From Elusimicrobiota bacterium (GTDB lineage Bacteria; Elusimicrobiota; Elusimicrobia; UBA1565; UBA9628): DNA of 64,000 nt. The notes beneath the pieces were generated by a model. It made no database searches, was not told where the DNA came from, and saw only the letters and a list, made by a program, of their open reading frames with translations. Where the stretch lies: contig PLZD01000050.1 of assembly GCA_003151975.1 (NCBI GenBank), positions 1 through 64,000 of the forward strand. The letters are read 5' to 3'. Shown here one piece after another: positions 1,626 through 23,440 of the stretch (within the stretch, counting starts at the first letter, position 1; each line of letters starts with the position of its first letter). Both the position numbers and the translations under genes were made by a program.

Positions 1626-3356
1626 ATGCCCCTCGTCAAGAATTGGAGCCTTCTTCTTCTTTTGGCCCTCGCCGGGGTCTCGCCCGGCGTTTCCTGGGCC
1701 GATTCCCCCAACGCGCCGCTGGATTTCAAGCAGGCCAAGGTCCCCGACGAATACCGGCCCGTCTTCGGCTTCCTCGGCTACAAGTTCGACGACAAGACCA
1801 GCCACATCCTCAAACCCGACGGGACCGCGCTCACCGAGAGTAAATTCAAGGATTTGTTGTCTCCCGTCGATTTCCACAAAGGAGACATCAACGACGAAGA
1901 GAAGGACGCGCTCGTGCTCAACGGCTGCCGGCTGGAGGAGGATTCGGGCCACATCCTCTGCATCGACGAGAAGACCAAAGCCAAGGTCCCGATGCCCAAG
2001 ATCAGCCTCGAGATGCTCCACAAGCAAAACAAACTGTCGTCGGGGCAGTCGATCATCGCGCGGATGTCGCTGCTGCTTTCAAAGGAGGATCCCGCCAAGC
2101 CCGTTCCGGCGGAGGTCGCAAGCCAGCTCAAGTCCATGCTGGAGAAATCCCCCGGCGCCGCCGTGCCGGAATCATTGATCAAGGCTCTGACCGCGCCCGG
2201 CGCCAAATCCGGCGACGCGCGAGCGCTCGTCGAAAGCGCGTATGCCGACTCCACGCGCTTTTTCGACGCGCAGCAGAGCCTGCAGGACCACGCCAAGGCT
2301 TCGCTTCCGGTGATCCCCGGCTGGAACGAGCCCAAGCACCCGCCGCAGTTCTTCGACGACAACGAAAAGAAACTCGGGCTCGCCCTGCGCGATTCGGCTC
2401 AGAAGTATTACGCGCAGAGCCCGATCGGCCAGGAGCTGCTCGACCACTACAAAGACAAGAACGGCAAGGTGACTTTGCCGCCGTTTTTGATCCTCAAGCT
2501 CGATCCGCGGGAGGGCGCCGTCTACAATTACACGAACAAGACCGTCGTGGTCAACCAGCAGTACGTCATCGATGGCATCACGGCGCATATGCCGGAAGGC
2601 AAGGCGCGCGACGCCCTGCGCGATCAGCTCAAGGATTCGCAGAAGTTCGCGGCCTACATGCTCGCCCACCCGGAAGCGCAGGAAGCCTTCTTCAAGCAGC
2701 ACGACGTCGACCTTTATCACGAACTGACCCACGGCTGGCAGGACCGCCGCGACAGCGTCTTCAGTGAAATGGAGCGCGGCAATACGCCATCCGCGATTCA
2801 CATCGAATACGAGCAGGAGGCCTTCCTCCAGGAAAATCGCTACATGCACTGGAAGGTCATGCACGATCCGGCCGCGGCCATGAACGACCCCAACCTCGCG
2901 CGCTACACGGAGTTCATCACGAACTTCGACAAGTTCCGCGAAGGCGTCGCGCAGCAGTACCTCGAGCTTTTCCCCAAGGACGCCGCGACCCTGAGCACCG
3001 TCGAGGACCTGCAACATGAGCGCGTCTCCATCGCGCGCCGCTTGATGGGCGAGAACCTGCACTCGGCCGCCGTCGAGCTCCTGAAGATGGTCGGCATGGC
3101 GCGCGGCGAGGCGGAGCTAGAGCGCGTGCAGTCCGACCAGCAAAAGCGAACGGCGGCGTTCGTGAAAGACGAGTACCCGAAGGACCAGCAGGAAGGCTAC
3201 CGCGGCATGGCCGAGCTCTACTTGCTCAAGGCCCAAAGCGACAAGACCCCCATCGAGCGCGACAACGATTGGAACGCGGCCGAGGCCTGGGCCAAGGCGA
3301 CAGGCGATAAAGCTCTGATCGACCGCGTGGAAAAGGCGAAGGAGAAGAAAAAATGA
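1626..3356 (+). CDS. Large exported protein with HExxH motif
   Basis: 576 residues from ATG 1626, chosen because it follows a good promoter and opens with a signal peptide ending near GVSWA (about residue 25). HELTH at about residues 365-369 is an HExxH zinc-binding motif, followed about 30 residues later by glutamates (EYEQEAF) that could supply a third ligand. The rest is hydrophilic, helical and unassigned. The longer open frame from 1482 would run through the promoter and is rejected. The downstream lipoprotein gene overlaps by 4 nt (ATGA), so the two are probably one operon. A secreted zincin is the best guess. Confidence 0.72.
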   Translation: MPLVKNWSLLLLLALAGVSPGVSWADSPNAPLDFKQAKVPDEYRPVFGFLGYKFDDKTSHILKPDGTALTESKFKDLLSPVDFHKGDINDEEKDALVLNGCRLEEDSGHILCIDEKTKAKVPMPKISLEMLHKQNKLSSGQSIIARMSLLLSKEDPAKPVPAEVASQLKSMLEKSPGAAVPESLIKALTAPGAKSGDARALVESAYADSTRFFDAQQSLQDHAKASLPVIPGWNEPKHPPQFFDDNEKKLGLALRDSAQKYYAQSPIGQELLDHYKDKNGKVTLPPFLILKLDPREGAVYNYTNKTVVVNQQYVIDGITAHMPEGKARDALRDQLKDSQKFAAYMLAHPEAQEAFFKQHDVDLYHELTHGWQDRRDSVFSEMERGNTPSAIHIEYEQEAFLQENRYMHWKVMHDPAAAMNDPNLARYTEFITNFDKFREGVAQQYLELFPKDAATLSTVEDLQHERVSIARRLMGENLHSAAVELLKMVGMARGEAELERVQSDQQKRTAAFVKDEYPKDQQEGYRGMAELYLLKAQSDKTPIERDNDWNAAEAWAKATGDKALIDRVEKAKEKKK

Positions 3357-3898
3357 GACGGCTCGTTCTTGTCGCCGCGACGCTGGCCTTGGCCTCTTGC
3401 CAAAAGTCCCAGCCCCCGTCCAAGACCGGCATGGCGCTCTATCTCGAGCCCGGCAAGCTTTTCTCCTGCCAGGCTCCGGCCAATTGGAAAGTCCTCGAAA
3501 ACCAAGGCGGCGCACAGCGCGTGACCTTCGTGGGCCCGCCCGACGGTCCCGCGCCGTACGCCGACGCCATCAGCGTCTATTTCTACGCGAAGTCAGGCTC
3601 CAGTTTCGCGACGCCGCAGGCTTACGCGAAGGCCGAAGCGCTGCAGCCCGGCACGACGAGCCCGCTGTTGTTCAAGCCGTGGAAGGGCTTGGCCGTCTAT
3701 GAGTTCACGGCGACGCGCGCGCGTCCCGTCATGCACGGCGCGGGCCAGACCGAGTCGCGCAAGGAGTCGACCGTCTTGATTCCCGCGCCGGAAGGTTTCT
3801 ACGCCGCCGTCTACTCCGCTCCTGAAGCGGGATTTTCTCAGGCCGAGGGCGTCTTCCGCGAGCTCATCGACAGCCTGAACTTCGGCTCGGGCCGTTAG
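3353..3898 (+). CDS. Small lipoprotein, unknown function
   Basis: 181 residues. The signal peptide ends in a lipobox LASC, so cysteine 16 should be lipidated. The mature part resembles small beta-rich envelope lipoproteins, but I recognise no family. It is translationally coupled to the HExxH protein by an ATGA overlap. Its stop TAG shares bases with the TAA stop of the convergent gene (TTAG at 3895-3898). Confidence 0.75.
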   Translation: MRRLVLVAATLALASCQKSQPPSKTGMALYLEPGKLFSCQAPANWKVLENQGGAQRVTFVGPPDGPAPYADAISVYFYAKSGSSFATPQAYAKAEALQPGTTSPLLFKPWKGLAVYEFTATRARPVMHGAGQTESRKESTVLIPAPEGFYAAVYSAPEAGFSQAEGVFRELIDSLNFGSGR

Positions 3899-5778
3899 AT
3901 CAGGCTCAGCAGAGCCAGCGCCGCGGCGTAGGCGATCGGAATCCAAAGATTATCGTCGGGCTTGACCGGCAAGGTGTCGACGACGCTGAAAGCGATCGCC
4001 GCGCCCAGCGCCGCCAACCACGGGAAGCCCAGCGCGAGGCCGATGGTCAGCGCGACCGCAAATCCCGCCGCAGTCCCGTCGACAGAACGCTGGGTCCCCA
4101 TCACTTTGTAGGGCTTGAAGCCGAACCGCAAACCTACGAGCGGCCCGGCCGCGTCGCCCAAAGCCAGCGCCAAGGCCGCCGCGGGGAACAGCAAGGGACT
4201 CAAATGCAGAAGTCCGACGGCCGCCGCGACGGTCCCTAGTCCTAGCGCGACGTAGAACATGCCCGACATGCGGTCGCTTTCCTTGGCGCGCATAATCTTG
4301 CCGAACACGCGCTCGAAGAACGGCCGCGTCGCCGGAACCTTCAGACGGAAAAGCTCGCCGATGCCAATGACTCCTACGGCCGCGGCCGCGACCCAGACGG
4401 CGTGCGCGGCGCCAACGAGATAAAAAGCCGGAATAGAAAGAAGAAGAAGCTGGTGAAACGCCTTGCGCTTGAGTTCCTTTTTCCAAGTCTCGCTGCCGCC
4501 CTGCCAAAGCGCGATCAGCGGCCCGGTCAGAAGATAGAGCCCGAAGATCGCCGCAGGGATGAAGGTATAGAGACCAAGGACCGCCAGGGGCACCACGGCC
4601 GCGGCGCCGACAATCGCGGGCAGGATCAGCGCCTTGATGCCGCCCTTCTTGAACGCGGGATAAGGCAGGCGCGAGGCCATGGCGGCGGCGGTGAGCAAAG
4701 TCATCCCGGCCGCGAAGGGCACGGCCCACGGTGCCGCAATCGAGCCAAGCGTCAGGGCCACGGCCGCGATCACGCCCGCGCCCCCGGGGATCGGCAGGCC
4801 GGTGAAAGAGTCGCTCGTCTTGTGCGGGACCGTGCCGGCTTCCTCGGCGTGCGCGCCCACGTTGAAGCGCGAAAGGCGGAACCAGCCCGCCGTCGCAAAC
4901 AGCGCGGCGATCGGGAAGCCCCAGAAGCCCAGCGCGGGCAGCAGCGCGGCTTTGAAGATCAGCAGGGCGGGCGCGATGCCGAACGAGACCACGTCGGCCA
5001 GCGAGTCGTAGTCGATGCCGAGCGGGTTCTTGACCTTCAAGGCGCGCGCGGTGCGGCCGTCAAGCGCGTCGAAGATGTTGGCCGCGATGATCGCGACGAC
5101 CGCGGGCACGACCTTGCCTTGCGAGGCGAAGTAGGCGCCCGCCATGCCGCTCCACAAGTTGCCCGTCGTGACCATATTCGGGAAAATATTGTACCAGCGA
5201 GGCGTCTCTTTGACCGGCGCCGGAGAGGACTGAGGAACCTGCGGAAGAATTTGGTCGTTCGAATCTCTAGGAGAGGTCAGCGGCGCAGAATGCTCCGTCG
5301 CGCGGCCCTCGACATCGACGGCGGCACGAACCGCGCCGCCGTCGTCGGCCCATTTGTCGTAAGCGTGATCGAGAATCTGGTCCGTTGCGATGGAACCGCC
5401 CCGTGAGGATTCGCCGGCATCGAGCTTCTCGCCGACCGCCTGCAGGCCGGGCAGAACTTTCGGCTCCTCCGCCTTCGGCGCCGCGAGTTCGGCTTGCGGC
5501 GCCTGCATTTGCGCGGGGAGGACCGCCGGATCGATCGCGTTGAGCGCGCCGACGTTGGCTTCGGGTTGTACGATCGCCGTAAGCCCGGGAATCTGCGCGC
5601 CGGGGATCTCCAGGGTCTTCATCTCAAGACCGCCGAGCGAAACCGGGGCTAAATTCTTGAGGACGGGCGTCACTTTTATCGACGGCAATGCGCCGCCCTG
5701 GCCCTCGACGAGCGAACCTGCGACCGCCGGGAGCGGAGAGAGGTTGAACAGAATCGTGCAGAGGACGAAAATCCGCAT
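3895..5778 (-). CDS. CDP-alcohol phosphatidyltransferase / dolichol-kinase-like fusion with exported-type leader
   Basis: 627 residues in three parts. Residues 1-20 are a signal peptide, followed by a Pro/Ala-rich leader to about 190. Residues about 195-390 are a membrane CDP-alcohol phosphatidyltransferase: DALDGRTAR followed by GIDYDSLAD matches DGxxAR(x8)GxxxDxxxD, closest to phosphatidylserine synthase. Residues about 435-627 resemble CTP-dependent lipid kinases (SEC59/DGK1/phytol kinase), with RKAFH and a GDAAGPLVG segment. I know of no standard enzyme with this order. The leader shares IKVTP and PGAQI with the protein at 21755-23440. A signal peptide before the transferase raises a topology question, since its active site should face the cytosol. 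Confidence 0.85.
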   Translation of the reverse strand: MRIFVLCTILFNLSPLPAVAGSLVEGQGGALPSIKVTPVLKNLAPVSLGGLEMKTLEIPGAQIPGLTAIVQPEANVGALNAIDPAVLPAQMQAPQAELAAPKAEEPKVLPGLQAVGEKLDAGESSRGGSIATDQILDHAYDKWADDGGAVRAAVDVEGRATEHSAPLTSPRDSNDQILPQVPQSSPAPVKETPRWYNIFPNMVTTGNLWSGMAGAYFASQGKVVPAVVAIIAANIFDALDGRTARALKVKNPLGIDYDSLADVVSFGIAPALLIFKAALLPALGFWGFPIAALFATAGWFRLSRFNVGAHAEEAGTVPHKTSDSFTGLPIPGGAGVIAAVALTLGSIAAPWAVPFAAGMTLLTAAAMASRLPYPAFKKGGIKALILPAIVGAAAVVPLAVLGLYTFIPAAIFGLYLLTGPLIALWQGGSETWKKELKRKAFHQLLLLSIPAFYLVGAAHAVWVAAAAVGVIGIGELFRLKVPATRPFFERVFGKIMRAKESDRMSGMFYVALGLGTVAAAVGLLHLSPLLFPAAALALALGDAAGPLVGLRFGFKPYKVMGTQRSVDGTAAGFAVALTIGLALGFPWLAALGAAIAFSVVDTLPVKPDDNLWIPIAYAAALALLSLI

Positions 5779-15816: not shown

Positions 15817-16791
15817 ATGATCAAACAGAATCTCCGGATGGTCGACGTCGGCGGAAAAGCCGTGACCGCGCGCCGCGCCGTCGCGCGCGGCACTTTGCTC
15901 ATGGGCCGCCGGGCGTTCTCTTTGTTGTCGACCGGCAAGCTGCCCAAGGGCGACGCGCTCAAAGTCGGCGAGCTTGCCGGCATCATGGCCGCCAAGCGCG
16001 CCTGCGACAACATCCCGCTTTGCCATCCTCTGCCGCTCGAATCCGTGAGGATTTCGTTCGTCCTCGACGCGCGCCGAGCCTCCGTCACGGCGTTCTGCGA
16101 GGCCGCAGCCTGCGCCAAGACGGGCGTCGAGATGGAGGCGCTGGCCGGCGTCAACGGCGCGCTGCTCGCCGTCTACGATCTCGTCAAGCAAGTCGACGCC
16201 GCGTTGACGATCACGGATGTGCGTCTCGACATTAAAGAAGGCGGAAAATCCGGCTCATGGAAGCATCCCCTCTTTACGAAAGAAAAAATAGCTCCCCCGC
16301 TCAAGCCGGTCCGGCTCGGCGCCGCCGCCGTGATCACGGTCAGCGACCGCTGTTCTAAAGGAACAGCAAAAGATCTCTCAGGCCCGATCTTACGCGCGGG
16401 ACTTCGCGCGATCGGGCTCAAGACCGGCAAGCCGCTCGTCGTTCCCGATGAGAAGGAGTCGATTGCCAACGCCATCGTCAAGCTCGCGCGCAAAGCCGAC
16501 GCCGTCATACTGACCGGGGGAACGGGTATTTCTCCGCGGGACGTGACGCCCGAGGCCGTCAGCTCCGTTTGCGATCGCCTCATCCCCGGCATCGGCGAGG
16601 CGCTGCGTGCCGCGGGCCTGGCCTCGACGCCGATGTCTACTTTGAGCCGCTCGGTGGCGGGCCAGCTCGGCCGCTGCATCGTCGTTGCGCTTCCCGGATC
16701 GCGCGGCGGCGTCAAAGACGGCCTCGCCGTGCTCTCGGAGCTTCTGCCCCACGCGCTCCACGTCGCGCGCGGCGGCGACCACGCGAGATGA
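15817..16791 (+). CDS. MoaC-MogA/MoaB fusion protein
   Basis: 324 residues. Residues 1-150 are MoaC (cyclic pyranopterin monophosphate synthase), with KVGELAGIMAAKRACDNIPL, GVEMEALAGVN and DIKEGGKSG. Residues about 165-320 are a MogA/MoaB molybdopterin adenylyltransferase domain, with ITVSDRCSKG, LTGGTGISPRDVTPEA and a PGSRGG motif. The fusion joins the second step of the pathway to the adenylylation before metal insertion. It starts one base after the moaA stop and overlaps moeA by ATGA. Such fusions occur in several bacterial phyla. Confidence 0.93.
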   Translation: MIKQNLRMVDVGGKAVTARRAVARGTLLMGRRAFSLLSTGKLPKGDALKVGELAGIMAAKRACDNIPLCHPLPLESVRISFVLDARRASVTAFCEAAACAKTGVEMEALAGVNGALLAVYDLVKQVDAALTITDVRLDIKEGGKSGSWKHPLFTKEKIAPPLKPVRLGAAAVITVSDRCSKGTAKDLSGPILRAGLRAIGLKTGKPLVVPDEKESIANAIVKLARKADAVILTGGTGISPRDVTPEAVSSVCDRLIPGIGEALRAAGLASTPMSTLSRSVAGQLGRCIVVALPGSRGGVKDGLAVLSELLPHALHVARGGDHAR

Positions 16792-18201: not shown

Positions 18202-18621
18202 ATGATCACAAAATCTCCGATCGACCTGAATGCGCTGATCGCCGCCGTCGCCGCTCCCGGCCACGGCGGCCAGGCCTCGTTTGTCGGCGTCGTGCGCGAC
18301 GAGCACGAAGGCAAGCGCGTGGAGTCGGTCACTTATGAAGCCTTCGAGCCGCTCGCCGAGAAAGTCTTGAACGAGATCGTCGCTCAAGCGGGAGCCAATC
18401 ACGGCGCCAAAGTGGTCGCGGCTCACCGCGTCGGACGGCTTAAGGTCGGCGAAGCGTCGGTCGCGATCGTCGCGGCCTCCCCCCACCGCGCCGAGGCCTT
18501 CGCGGCCTGCCGCGAGGTCATCGAAGAGATCAAGAAGCGCGTCCCTGTCTGGAAGAAAGAGCATTACGCCGATGGCACGGAATCCTGGCTCGAGGGCTGC
18601 AAGCTGGCGGCCTCGCATTGA
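18202..18621 (+). CDS. moaE: Molybdopterin synthase large subunit MoaE
   Basis: 139 residues. Conserved blocks are GQASFVGVVRDEHEGK, HRVGRLKVGEASVAIVAA, SPHRAEAFAACR and KKRVPVWKKE, the last two carrying active-site arginine and lysine residues. It converts cyclic pyranopterin monophosphate to molybdopterin with MoaD. The next gene starts at a TTG overlapping the stop. Confidence 0.94.
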   Translation: MITKSPIDLNALIAAVAAPGHGGQASFVGVVRDEHEGKRVESVTYEAFEPLAEKVLNEIVAQAGANHGAKVVAAHRVGRLKVGEASVAIVAASPHRAEAFAACREVIEEIKKRVPVWKKEHYADGTESWLEGCKLAASH

Positions 18622-19142
18622 AGCTCCGCTGCGACCTGCACATCAACGGCGAAAACAGGAAGCTCCTGCTCGTCCCCGGACCCAACGAACTCGACTCGCG
18701 ATTGGCGCTAAAACTCGCCGGCTATTTGCTTTTTTGGAAGTTCGAGCCGAAGGTCGACGCCAGCGTCAAGACGCCGGCGCTGGCGCGCTTCGAGTTTCTG
18801 CCCGATCTCGTCGGGCTCGATGAGGGCGGCGAGATCGTGCTGTGGGTCGACTGCGGCACGACGACGATGAACAAGCTCGACAAGCTCATCAAGCGCCTGC
18901 CTTACGCGCGGATCGTGGTTATTAAGGAAAACGAGCGCGAGGCGCTCCGCCTGCGCAAAGATGCCGAGTCGGCGCTTGAGAAGCACGCGCGCGTCGAGAT
19001 CCTCGCCTTTGAGGGAACGCAGTTCAAGGAATGGCTGAGCTGCGTCGGCGAGAAAACCGAGGTCTTCGGCGAGTCTGAGGGCCTCCTGATCAACGCCGTC
19101 GTCAACGAGCACCCCGTCGTCGCGAATCTCAAGACTTTTTGA
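18618..19142 (+). CDS. YaeQ-like protein
   Basis: 174 residues from TTG 18618, which overlaps the moaE TGA. LALKLAGYLLFW near the N-terminus, then PDLVGLDEGGEIVLWVDCG and KLDKLIKR, resemble the YaeQ family, whose fold is of the restriction-endonuclease (PD-(D/E)xK) type. YaeQ function is poorly known. Its tight coupling to the Moco genes may be incidental. Similarity is by eye. Confidence 0.6.
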   Translation: MKLRCDLHINGENRKLLLVPGPNELDSRLALKLAGYLLFWKFEPKVDASVKTPALARFEFLPDLVGLDEGGEIVLWVDCGTTTMNKLDKLIKRLPYARIVVIKENEREALRLRKDAESALEKHARVEILAFEGTQFKEWLSCVGEKTEVFGESEGLLINAVVNEHPVVANLKTF

Positions 19143-21754: not shown

Positions 21755-23440
21755 CTAGCCGCGATTATGCTTGCGGCCGTTGCCGCCCGAAGACTGCGCG
21801 GTCGACGACGGCGCGCTCTCAGCGGCCAACGCGGGATCCTGGCCGGGGACGCTGTACAGGAAGAGGAAGGACACCGGGAAGCCGTACTGCTTGCTCAGAT
21901 CCTTTTCCTTTTGGCGCAGGAAGGTCATCAGCGCGGTCTGGTTCCTGATGTACTGCTCGCGCGTGCGGCTCTTGCCGAGATCCTCTTCCTGGAGCGCGGC
22001 CGGCGGCACACCCACGTCGACGGAGAAGACCACGTTGAGCGGACCGCCGAGGATGTCTTTTTGCTCGAGGCGCGCCTTGTTCCGCTTGTAGGTATCGAGC
22101 TTGTAGATGATCTTGTCGGACATGACGTCCTGCTTGGTCAGCGGCACGCGCGCGGACTTGGCCTCGACGAGGTAAGTCACGCCCTGCGGCGATTGCACGA
22201 CGACGTCGAGTTCGGTGATGTAGTGGCCCTTGGCGTCGAAGAGTTCGCGGCCGCCCTGCAGAATCTTGTAGCCGTTGTTGAAGTAGTACTCGGCCGTCTT
22301 GAGCTCGAGCAGCAGGCCCGTGTAGCGGCTGTAGATCACGCCCTCGATGACGTTCAGGAGGCCGTCGTTCTTGTGCTCTTGAATGAGCGCGTTGACGGCG
22401 TTGCGCATGTCGGCGATCGTCTTGGGCGCCGGCGCGACCTCGTCGAGGTACACGAAGCGGAAGCGGCCGCCGTGGGCGGCGTTGACCTTGGCTTCTTCGC
22501 CCTTGATGAAATCCTTGATCTCCTTGTAGCCGCGCGTGTCGAAACCGAGCACGACTTCGTCGAGCGGGCCGATGACGTTGTCGGCCTTGCCGCCTTCCGC
22601 GAAGAGCCGCACCTGGTCCTCGATGCCCTTCTTGACGCGGCGCAGGCCTTCCTCGATTTCGGATTGGGGATTCGTGGCGTGGTGGAAGAACACGCGCGTC
22701 GTGTGCACCGCGATTTTCTTGCCGCCCTTGTCGATCACGCCGTCGGTCCAGGTCAAAGTCATCGGGATGTGCGCGCTGTGCTCGTCGGCGGTCCCGCCCT
22801 TGGATTCGTGCGCCATGATGGACGCGCGAGCGTAGGCCTCGGCGTAGGCGTCGTCCATGACGTCGGTCGCCTCGGAGAAATCGATCTTGCCCTTGTATTT
22901 GGCGACGATGCGCGTCGCCTCTTGATCGTAGGCGTCCGCCCGGCCCATGACCATGACGCCGTCGGCGTTGGGCCGGAGCTCGGTGCTCTCGCTTTGCCGG
23001 GGGACGGAGACCGACGACCCGCCGCCGCGCTGGCCGGCGTAAATCTTTCCGAACTCAAGCGAAGAACCGACGCCGGAGGCATCGGACTCCGAAAGCTTGT
23101 TTACGGCTTGGACTTGCTCGCCGAGGCTTGCGCGAATGCCCGTCTCGTGGAGGGCCGTCGACTCGACTCCGCCCAGGTTGGGAGCGATCGCCATCTGGGA
23201 AATCTGAAGCTCCGGCAGATTCGGAAGCGTCGGGATGGCGGAGAACTGCGCCATCGGCGCGATCAGCGGAACCGCGTTGAGGTTCTGGCCCAGCGAGCCG
23301 ATCTGGGCGCCGGGCAGCGTGATCCCCAAACGGATCGGCTCGGCCCCGACGAAGGGCGTGACCTTGATCTCATTGGCGGCGCGCAAGGGAAGCGCGATGA
23401 AAGCGGCGAGGGCCCAAATCTTCGCGAGGGTTCGGTTCAT
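21755..23440 (-). CDS. Exported leader protein with PD-(D/E)xK-like domain
   Basis: 561 residues. A signal peptide (1-21) precedes a Pro/Leu/Ala-rich leader to about 150; NEIKVTPF and LPGAQIGSL within it match the leader of the 3895-5778 protein. A helical middle region follows. Near the C-terminus LELKTAEYYF (residues 378-387), TELDVVV (Asp412) and LVEAKSA (Glu426, Lys428) spell a PD-(D/E)xK nuclease core. A Ser/Gly/Asn-rich tail ends the protein. An exported endonuclease-fold protein is unusual; DNA cleavage is inferred only. Its start region AATAACGGCATGAAC is identical to that of the 32564 gene. Confidence 0.78.
   Translation of the reverse strand: MNRTLAKIWALAAFIALPLRAANEIKVTPFVGAEPIRLGITLPGAQIGSLGQNLNAVPLIAPMAQFSAIPTLPNLPELQISQMAIAPNLGGVESTALHETGIRASLGEQVQAVNKLSESDASGVGSSLEFGKIYAGQRGGGSSVSVPRQSESTELRPNADGVMVMGRADAYDQEATRIVAKYKGKIDFSEATDVMDDAYAEAYARASIMAHESKGGTADEHSAHIPMTLTWTDGVIDKGGKKIAVHTTRVFFHHATNPQSEIEEGLRRVKKGIEDQVRLFAEGGKADNVIGPLDEVVLGFDTRGYKEIKDFIKGEEAKVNAAHGGRFRFVYLDEVAPAPKTIADMRNAVNALIQEHKNDGLLNVIEGVIYSRYTGLLLELKTAEYYFNNGYKILQGGRELFDAKGHYITELDVVVQSPQGVTYLVEAKSARVPLTKQDVMSDKIIYKLDTYKRNKARLEQKDILGGPLNVVFSVDVGVPPAALQEEDLGKSRTREQYIRNQTALMTFLRQKEKDLSKQYGFPVSFLFLYSVPGQDPALAAESAPSSTAQSSGGNGRKHNRG

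Follow-up and report, generated by a model that had tools for sequence, protein, structure and literature searches.

An exported tandem PD-(D/E)xK-like protein, likely a nuclease, represents a new family in Elusimicrobiota

The 64,000-nucleotide stretch of Elusimicrobiota DNA analysed here (the window), part of contig C58 of a 4.64 Mb draft genome, encodes a 561-residue protein that is both a new family and a new architecture of a known fold: an exported tandem of two restriction-endonuclease-like domains, one of them a diverged copy. Our favoured explanation, to which we give an even chance of being correct, is that it is an exported, metal-dependent nuclease with which these Elusimicrobiota scavenge nucleic acids outside the cytoplasm.

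Gene, export signal and protein layout

The gene lies at 21755..23440 on the minus strand, as does every feature of the protein located below, and is read from an ATG start; an earlier note on this DNA had its coordinates right. The protein opens with a Sec-type signal peptide (residues 1-22, 23375..23440; MNRTLAKIWALAAFIALPLRAANE), for which we infer cleavage after A21 or A22. That note had also placed a Sec signal peptide before a nuclease core, a prediction with which the sequences of the homologues agree: a crude n/h/c rule picks out such a peptide in 20 of the 23 homologues (the target among them) whose N-terminus can be read, a count from which three homologues truncated by a contig end were left out. 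For L030 and L039, the signal peptide was recovered by eye from internal starts.

Behind the signal peptide lies a disordered Pro/Ala/Leu-rich linker (residues 23-95, 23156..23374; pLDDT below 50 for residues 16-98), a type of region that recurs in an alignment of N-termini (A4). Residues 96-134 are modelled by AlphaFold2 as a short helical segment, at the end of which sits an [FY]xG motif (IYAG, residues 133-136, 23033..23044); in relatives of the protein this motif is mostly LFDG, MFDG or LFSG, and its glycine, G136, is almost invariant. Two folded domains follow, namely a diverged restriction-endonuclease-like domain recognised from profiles and models (domain 1, residues 158-355, 22376..22969) and a PD-(D/E)xK-like catalytic core recognised from the model and an alignment (domain 2, residues 361-529, 21854..22360). 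The protein ends in a Gly/Ser-rich stretch and a basic C-terminal tail (SSGGNGRKHNRG; 21758..21793). Modelled in full, it reached a mean pLDDT of 77.9 and a pTM of 0.70, with the folded part largely above 90.

The catalytic core of domain 2

In the AlphaFold2 model, domain 2 runs through a helix (361-388), three strands (392-401, 407-416 and 422-429), a second helix (436-453), a strand (470-475), further helices and a last strand (523-527), an alpha-beta-beta-beta-alpha-beta topology that places a restriction-endonuclease-like core at residues 361-527. Within it, E379 (in LLLELK; codon 22304..22306) sits in the first helix, D412 (in TELDVVV; codon 22205..22207) in the second strand, and E426 and K428 (in LVEAKSA; codons of E426-A427-K428, 22157..22165) in the third. 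All 27 rows of the domain-2 alignment have these four residues, along with E410, R431, K447, Y451 and D475, and since the rows share just 33-58% identity with the window's copy, the invariance of the catalytic residues is informative. That alignment includes two copies from giant proteins, one of which (from G236) carries a long insertion before the ExK strand and offers two candidate ExK sites, VEVK and EEK; L043, whose sequence stops before domain 2, was excluded. Among the partial homologues, L045 is present in alignments A1 and A3 only, and L046 in none of A1-A3.

On the strength of its predicted core fold and these conserved residues, domain 2 probably belongs to the PD-(D/E)xK superfamily. 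A core of this kind, with D412, E426, K428 and an upstream conserved Glu, was what the earlier note had proposed and had suggested checking by structure prediction. The model, mostly at pLDDT above 90, recovers the expected topology, the three residues hold in every row, the upstream Glu proves to be E379, and the matches among solved structures are mostly of the same fold. The best of these for the domain-2 region is XisH (2inb; Z 9.3, rmsd 3.3, 123 residues aligned over 376-541), to be read knowing that a Z of 8-9 is near the level that the comparison tool calls common. The top Foldseek matches (EcoT38I, ACE1, SfsA and FokI) are all nucleases of the restriction-endonuclease-like fold, with none among the solved structures at E <= 0.001.

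Searched against Pfam, NCBIfam, PHROGs and PADLOC, the 561-residue protein itself gave no family, not even with the limit relaxed to E <= 1, and a PDB sequence search with domain 2 returned no meaningful relatives. A few domain-2 members gave weak Pfam matches, to NERD (PF08378) in 5 of 27 (best E 0.0041) and to UPF0102 (PF02021) in 3 of 27 (best E 0.0024), both of which we take to be PD-(D/E)xK-type families. The QxxxY motif is absent from domain 2; where it would fall, there is an invariant KxxxY (K447 and Y451).

A diverged second copy

The earlier note described a single nuclease core and thereby missed domain 1. Profile comparison aligns domain 1 with domain 2 (Prob 95.9, E 5.7e-9): D233 falls opposite D412, and LGFD opposite FSVD. 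The score on the query columns, 42.0, compares with a maximum of 20.0 among 60 column-shuffled controls and with 9.9 for the reversed profile. Modelled alone, domain 1 reached a pLDDT of 92.3 and a pTM of 0.87, and its best solved matches were XisH (2okf, Z 8.9; 2inb, 8.7), AF1548 (8.1) and AspBHI (7.8), followed by Card1, PaqCI, HamA and Can2, which makes them mostly restriction-endonuclease-like. In Foldseek, 2okf was matched at a probability of 1.00 and E 0.0024, and nothing at E <= 0.001.

Domain 1 has lost the ExK signature, the positions of which are occupied by H246 and T247, and has kept D233. In its alignment (A2, 27 rows), G161, V194, D233, T247, G265, D301 and G304 are invariant. 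Counting residues that are invariant or nearly so, D233, T247, H253, S260, E261, E264, R267, R268, D301 and R303 make ten, because of which we do not regard the domain as merely decaying. Domain 1 is thus a PD-(D/E)xK-superfamily fold related to domain 2, a diverged copy without an intact (D/E)xK, and the profile comparison and the models together show that the two domains arose by duplication.

Relation to known systems

XisH, the fdxN-element excision controlling factor (2inb, 2okf), is the best structural match of both domains and consists of a single restriction-endonuclease-like domain. Unlike the 561-residue protein, it has neither a signal peptide nor a tandem, and a Pfam sequence match to it is absent; it is, we assume, a small cytoplasmic protein of cyanobacteria. 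NERD (PF08378) and UPF0102/YraN (PF02021), which a few domain-2 members weakly match, likewise differ from our protein in architecture and export. RecB/Cas4-like PD-(D/E)xK nucleases, which carry a QxxxY motif, share the spacing of D...ExK with domain 2, where KxxxY sits at the QxxxY place; the 561-residue protein differs from them in that K replaces Q and in having no Fe-S cysteines and no helicase domain. From the same bacteria, exported Endonuclease I (PF04231) has a like N-terminus (signal peptide, Pro/Ala linker and FDG) and, in some cases, a basic C-terminal tail, although Endonuclease I has a His-Me-finger fold unrelated to PD-(D/E)xK.

Secreted nucleases are common; to our knowledge, exported proteins of the PD-(D/E)xK fold are not a usual annotation outside toxins. 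The tandem of an intact and a diverged copy behind a signal peptide makes up a family without a curated model, and among the matches listed from the Elusimicrobiota literature on giant proteins, secreted or extracellular nucleases, sorting signals and scavenging, none appears to describe the family or its motif.

Distribution and giant proteins

Of 57 relatives, 29 have a match to the gene; all 29 belong to the order of the window's genome, and none of the 11 relatives outside that order has one. When 294 genomes of the phylum were searched with a profile, 32 were listed; 31 of these align past the N-terminal region, wholly or partly, and the remaining one (G296), which matches in the N-terminal part only, was excluded from the homologue count. 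Scanning contigs of the genomes gave 30 loci, all labelled Elusimicrobia, Elusimicrobiota or just "bacterium", and the phages, plasmids and viral contigs searched held no relative of the protein.

The two hits in the phylum that fall outside the order both lie within giant open reading frames, in which the whole tandem module is embedded internally. The giant of G127 (10,958 codons; C1, 161390-194263 on the minus strand; L107-L109) has a signal-like N-terminal segment and carries the module at residues 2421-2824; that of G236 (at least 7,856 codons; C90; L111-L112) is cut by the contig start and carries the module at about 3301-3764. Full-sequence profile E values for domains 1 and 2 were 6.6e-68 and 3.9e-56 in G236 and 9.6e-66 and 1.4e-57 in G127, values that are optimistic in that both giants are rows in those profiles; BLASTP with the window's protein alone gave 1e-55 and 1e-44. 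Pfam finds A_deaminase in both giants, ADH_N and a sub-threshold PGM in G127, and RNB, Glucosamine_iso, iPGM_N and Metalloenzyme in G236. The giant frames read as fused metabolic enzymes, in which the nuclease module is joined with adenosine deaminase, sugar-phosphate mutases or isomerases and, in one, RNB.

In G236, the segments that flank the module (2645-2977 and 3943-4716) each align with one and the same exported RNB gene, from G017. In G017 itself, this gene (L043:9295-12627) stands divergently, 61 nt from a gene (L043, 7197-9182) that joins Endonuclease I to domain 1 and lacks domain 2. The G236 fusion and this neighbourhood of RNB and Endonuclease I tie the module to the breakdown of RNA and DNA. 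According to passages of PMC11573180 and PMC12057145, proteins of more than 5000 aa are abundant in Elusimicrobiota, and the passages of PMC11573180 on giant proteins do not describe the tandem module. Two giant proteins, among those of Elusimicrobiota and Omnitrophota, embed the full module, whereas the window's gene encodes it as a stand-alone protein of 561 aa.

An N-terminal plan shared with other exported proteins

With its N-terminal part, the family profile also picked up other proteins in the genomes that bear homologues, and the N-termini of these proteins share a layout that includes [RS]L-[DN]-x-x-F-D-G or variants of it. In the order of the window's genome, we observe an exported class (members L113-L122 and L149-L168; genomes G014, G026, G028, G035, G037, G041, G296 and G300) in which a signal peptide, a Pro/Ala linker and L-[DN]-x-x-F-[DSE]-G precede unrelated domains, many of them usually cytoplasmic (PPK2, LOG, GDE_C with GH77, and RNB). 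The N-terminal profile (A4), built from 24 N-termini with L118, L038, L041, L053, L021 and L025 excluded, is compositionally biased towards Ala and Pro, and its specificity was therefore checked across genomes: at E <= 0.1 it produced 73 hits across five genomes from genera g9 and g14 (7-19 per genome), and it had a match in 1 of 19 other genomes of the phylum. Among 20 further hits out of the 73, [FY]xG, called by eye and with a regular expression, stood near the expected place in 14 and did not do so in 6.

Twenty-nine class members besides L043 were scanned with Pfam, L121 being left out. Twelve have transporter domains or domains related to nucleic acids or nucleotides (PPK2 in 3, Endonuclease_1 in 2, RNB, PLDc and a LOG-type domain in 1 each, and MFS/TLC in 4), seven carry others (GDE_C with GH77, M48, Rce1, MscS, PspA, another MFS and a weak methyltransferase), and ten have no Pfam family. 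The class reaches beyond nucleic-acid metabolism and, since it includes enzymes unrelated to nucleic acids, membership is no proof of a nucleic-acid role.

Within the window's own genome (G000), the A4 profile found the target only and missed two further proteins in which the motif can be seen by eye. One (L181:877-2790, C41) carries a signal peptide and VFDG ahead of a fusion of Endonuclease I (Endonuclease_1, E 2.4e-38) with adenylate kinase (ADK, E 5.5e-33); the other (L188; C11, 99907-100581 on the minus strand) is a PPK2 with a signal-peptide-like N-terminus and KFDG.

At the other end of these proteins, a net charge of at least 4 in the last 12 residues was found in 15 of 25 members of the tandem family, in 4 of 11 Endonuclease I proteins and in 0 of 25 remaining class members; against the others, Mann-Whitney p values were 0.0007 for the tandem family and 0.08 for Endonuclease I, and they are only indicative, the rows being related. 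Homologues from genus g6 are without a basic tail. We considered the tail as a general sorting tag and rejected this: a search of the window's own genome with a strict pattern yielded 0 sites, although the target's tail itself falls outside the pattern. Because the tail is confined to nucleases within the class, we prefer nucleic-acid binding to sorting as its explanation.

Function

A nuclease function of the 561-residue protein is likely, while its physiological role is moderately supported. In the mechanism that we propose, the Sec signal peptide, strongly indicated by the sequence, would carry the protein over the inner membrane, where a long disordered linker would hold the two restriction-endonuclease-like domains. 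In domain 2, a metal site of D412, E426 and K428, together with E379, would carry out Mg2+-dependent phosphodiester cleavage, as the fold and the invariance of these residues suggest. Domain 1 would most likely serve as a built-in partner, forming a pseudo-dimer and gripping or positioning the nucleic acid, and in many homologues the basic C-terminal tail may aid nucleic-acid contact. Scavenging would probably be a joint effort with exported enzymes of like N-terminus, namely the Endonuclease I-adenylate kinase fusion and PPK2, and RNB in relatives. According to passages of PMC11495043, secreted nucleases are commonly read as nutritional, and 61% of activated-sludge genomes encode predicted ones. 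Against a scavenging nuclease is the absence of the gene from many relatives, given that only the 29 of 57 noted above match. Co-occurrence with Endonuclease I was not significant (20 genomes with both among the 46 in the order; Fisher p 0.21); a search for the TLC nucleotide transporter found none in the window's own genome, and many of the matches elsewhere were short and weak.

The earlier note, in calling exported nuclease folds unusual elsewhere, had implied a context of toxins or DNA uptake, and this fared poorly: no neighbouring immunity or competence gene was recognised, ComEC occurs independently of the gene, and the module is internal in the giants. DNA uptake is nonetheless the nearest alternative to scavenging. 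As an agent of natural transformation, the exported nuclease would convert bound double-stranded DNA for uptake through ComEC, with which export and the basic tail are compatible, and ComEC is encoded by the window's genome as well as by 52 of the 57 relatives; it is, however, equally present in relatives without the gene, so that the correlation is uninformative and the ComEC data do not discriminate between uptake and scavenging. Among the neighbours listed, none was recognised as a competence gene, and the fusion of Endonuclease I with a nucleotide kinase, a protein of the same class in the same genome, points to salvage. We consider a role in transformation unlikely. We attach an equally small probability to a protein that retains the fold and is catalytically inactive, acting as a nucleic-acid-binding or structural surface protein. 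Many members of the PD-(D/E)xK superfamily are inactive, domain 1 lacks ExK and the giants may be surface structures, but the invariance of E379, D412, E426 and K428 in all 27 rows, at 33-58% identity to the window's domain, speaks against it.

More improbable again, in our judgement, is an envelope barrier against incoming phage or plasmid DNA. The nuclease fold and a periplasmic location would suit such a barrier, but the protein has no PADLOC family, no defence gene was recognised among the neighbours listed, and the distribution is broad and vertical-like inside one order. Least probable of all, and only a slight chance, is an antibacterial toxin delivered into competitors: solved structures and literature matches show that the fold occurs in some antibacterial nuclease effectors, yet no immunity gene, delivery domain or conserved small partner gene was recognised, the gene is usually single-copy in a genome, the module is internal rather than C-terminal in the giant proteins, and both domains are well conserved instead of polymorphic.

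If the preferred reading, an exported scavenging nuclease, is true, it would give a poorly known phylum a new nuclease family and one segment of its giant proteins a function, and would raise the question of whether nucleotides are salvaged in the envelope with exported, normally cytoplasmic kinases (adenylate kinase and PPK2). A wider proposal, which we put forward as a rather doubtful one, is that a pathway from nucleic acid to nucleotide runs outside the cytoplasm across the order, comprising nucleases (the tandem protein, Endonuclease I and RNB), a fused adenylate kinase and a polyphosphate-driven PPK2, with an undescribed N-terminal module for export or processing shared among them and giant fusions in distant relatives.

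Neighbouring genes

Downstream of the nuclease gene, and 6 nt past its stop as the earlier note had said, begins P0002 (20654..21748, minus strand, 364 aa, GTG start), which lies outside the conserved unit. The operon with a glycosidase-like gene that had been proposed for this pair did not hold up as meaningful, given that in none of 25 other loci is P0002 next to the nuclease gene. Its identity as a six-hairpin glycosidase likewise found no support, with no Pfam match over the cut-off, no NCBIfam family and no PDB relative. The glycosidase link was accordingly set aside: Pfam offers only DUF4129 at E 0.072, below the cut-off, and the PDB only a spurious short match. By eye, P0002 has no evident signal peptide. 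In the one syntenic relative (L035), ChaN follows the nuclease gene in the place of P0002; two loci from a single genus have a UvrD-like helicase, as read from the start of its sequence, downstream at gaps of 6 and 21 nt; and in the remaining loci the neighbours vary. The neighbours are thus not conserved, and the nuclease gene stands alone as a unit.

Elsewhere in the window, a YaeQ-family gene (18618-19142, plus strand), presumably also of PD-(D/E)xK fold, is some 2.6 kb away from the nuclease gene, and one is found near the L035 locus too; this closeness is probably coincidental. At 15817-16791 (plus strand), within a molybdopterin gene cluster, MoaC-like and MogA/MoaB-like parts seemingly form one open reading frame, as judged by eye.
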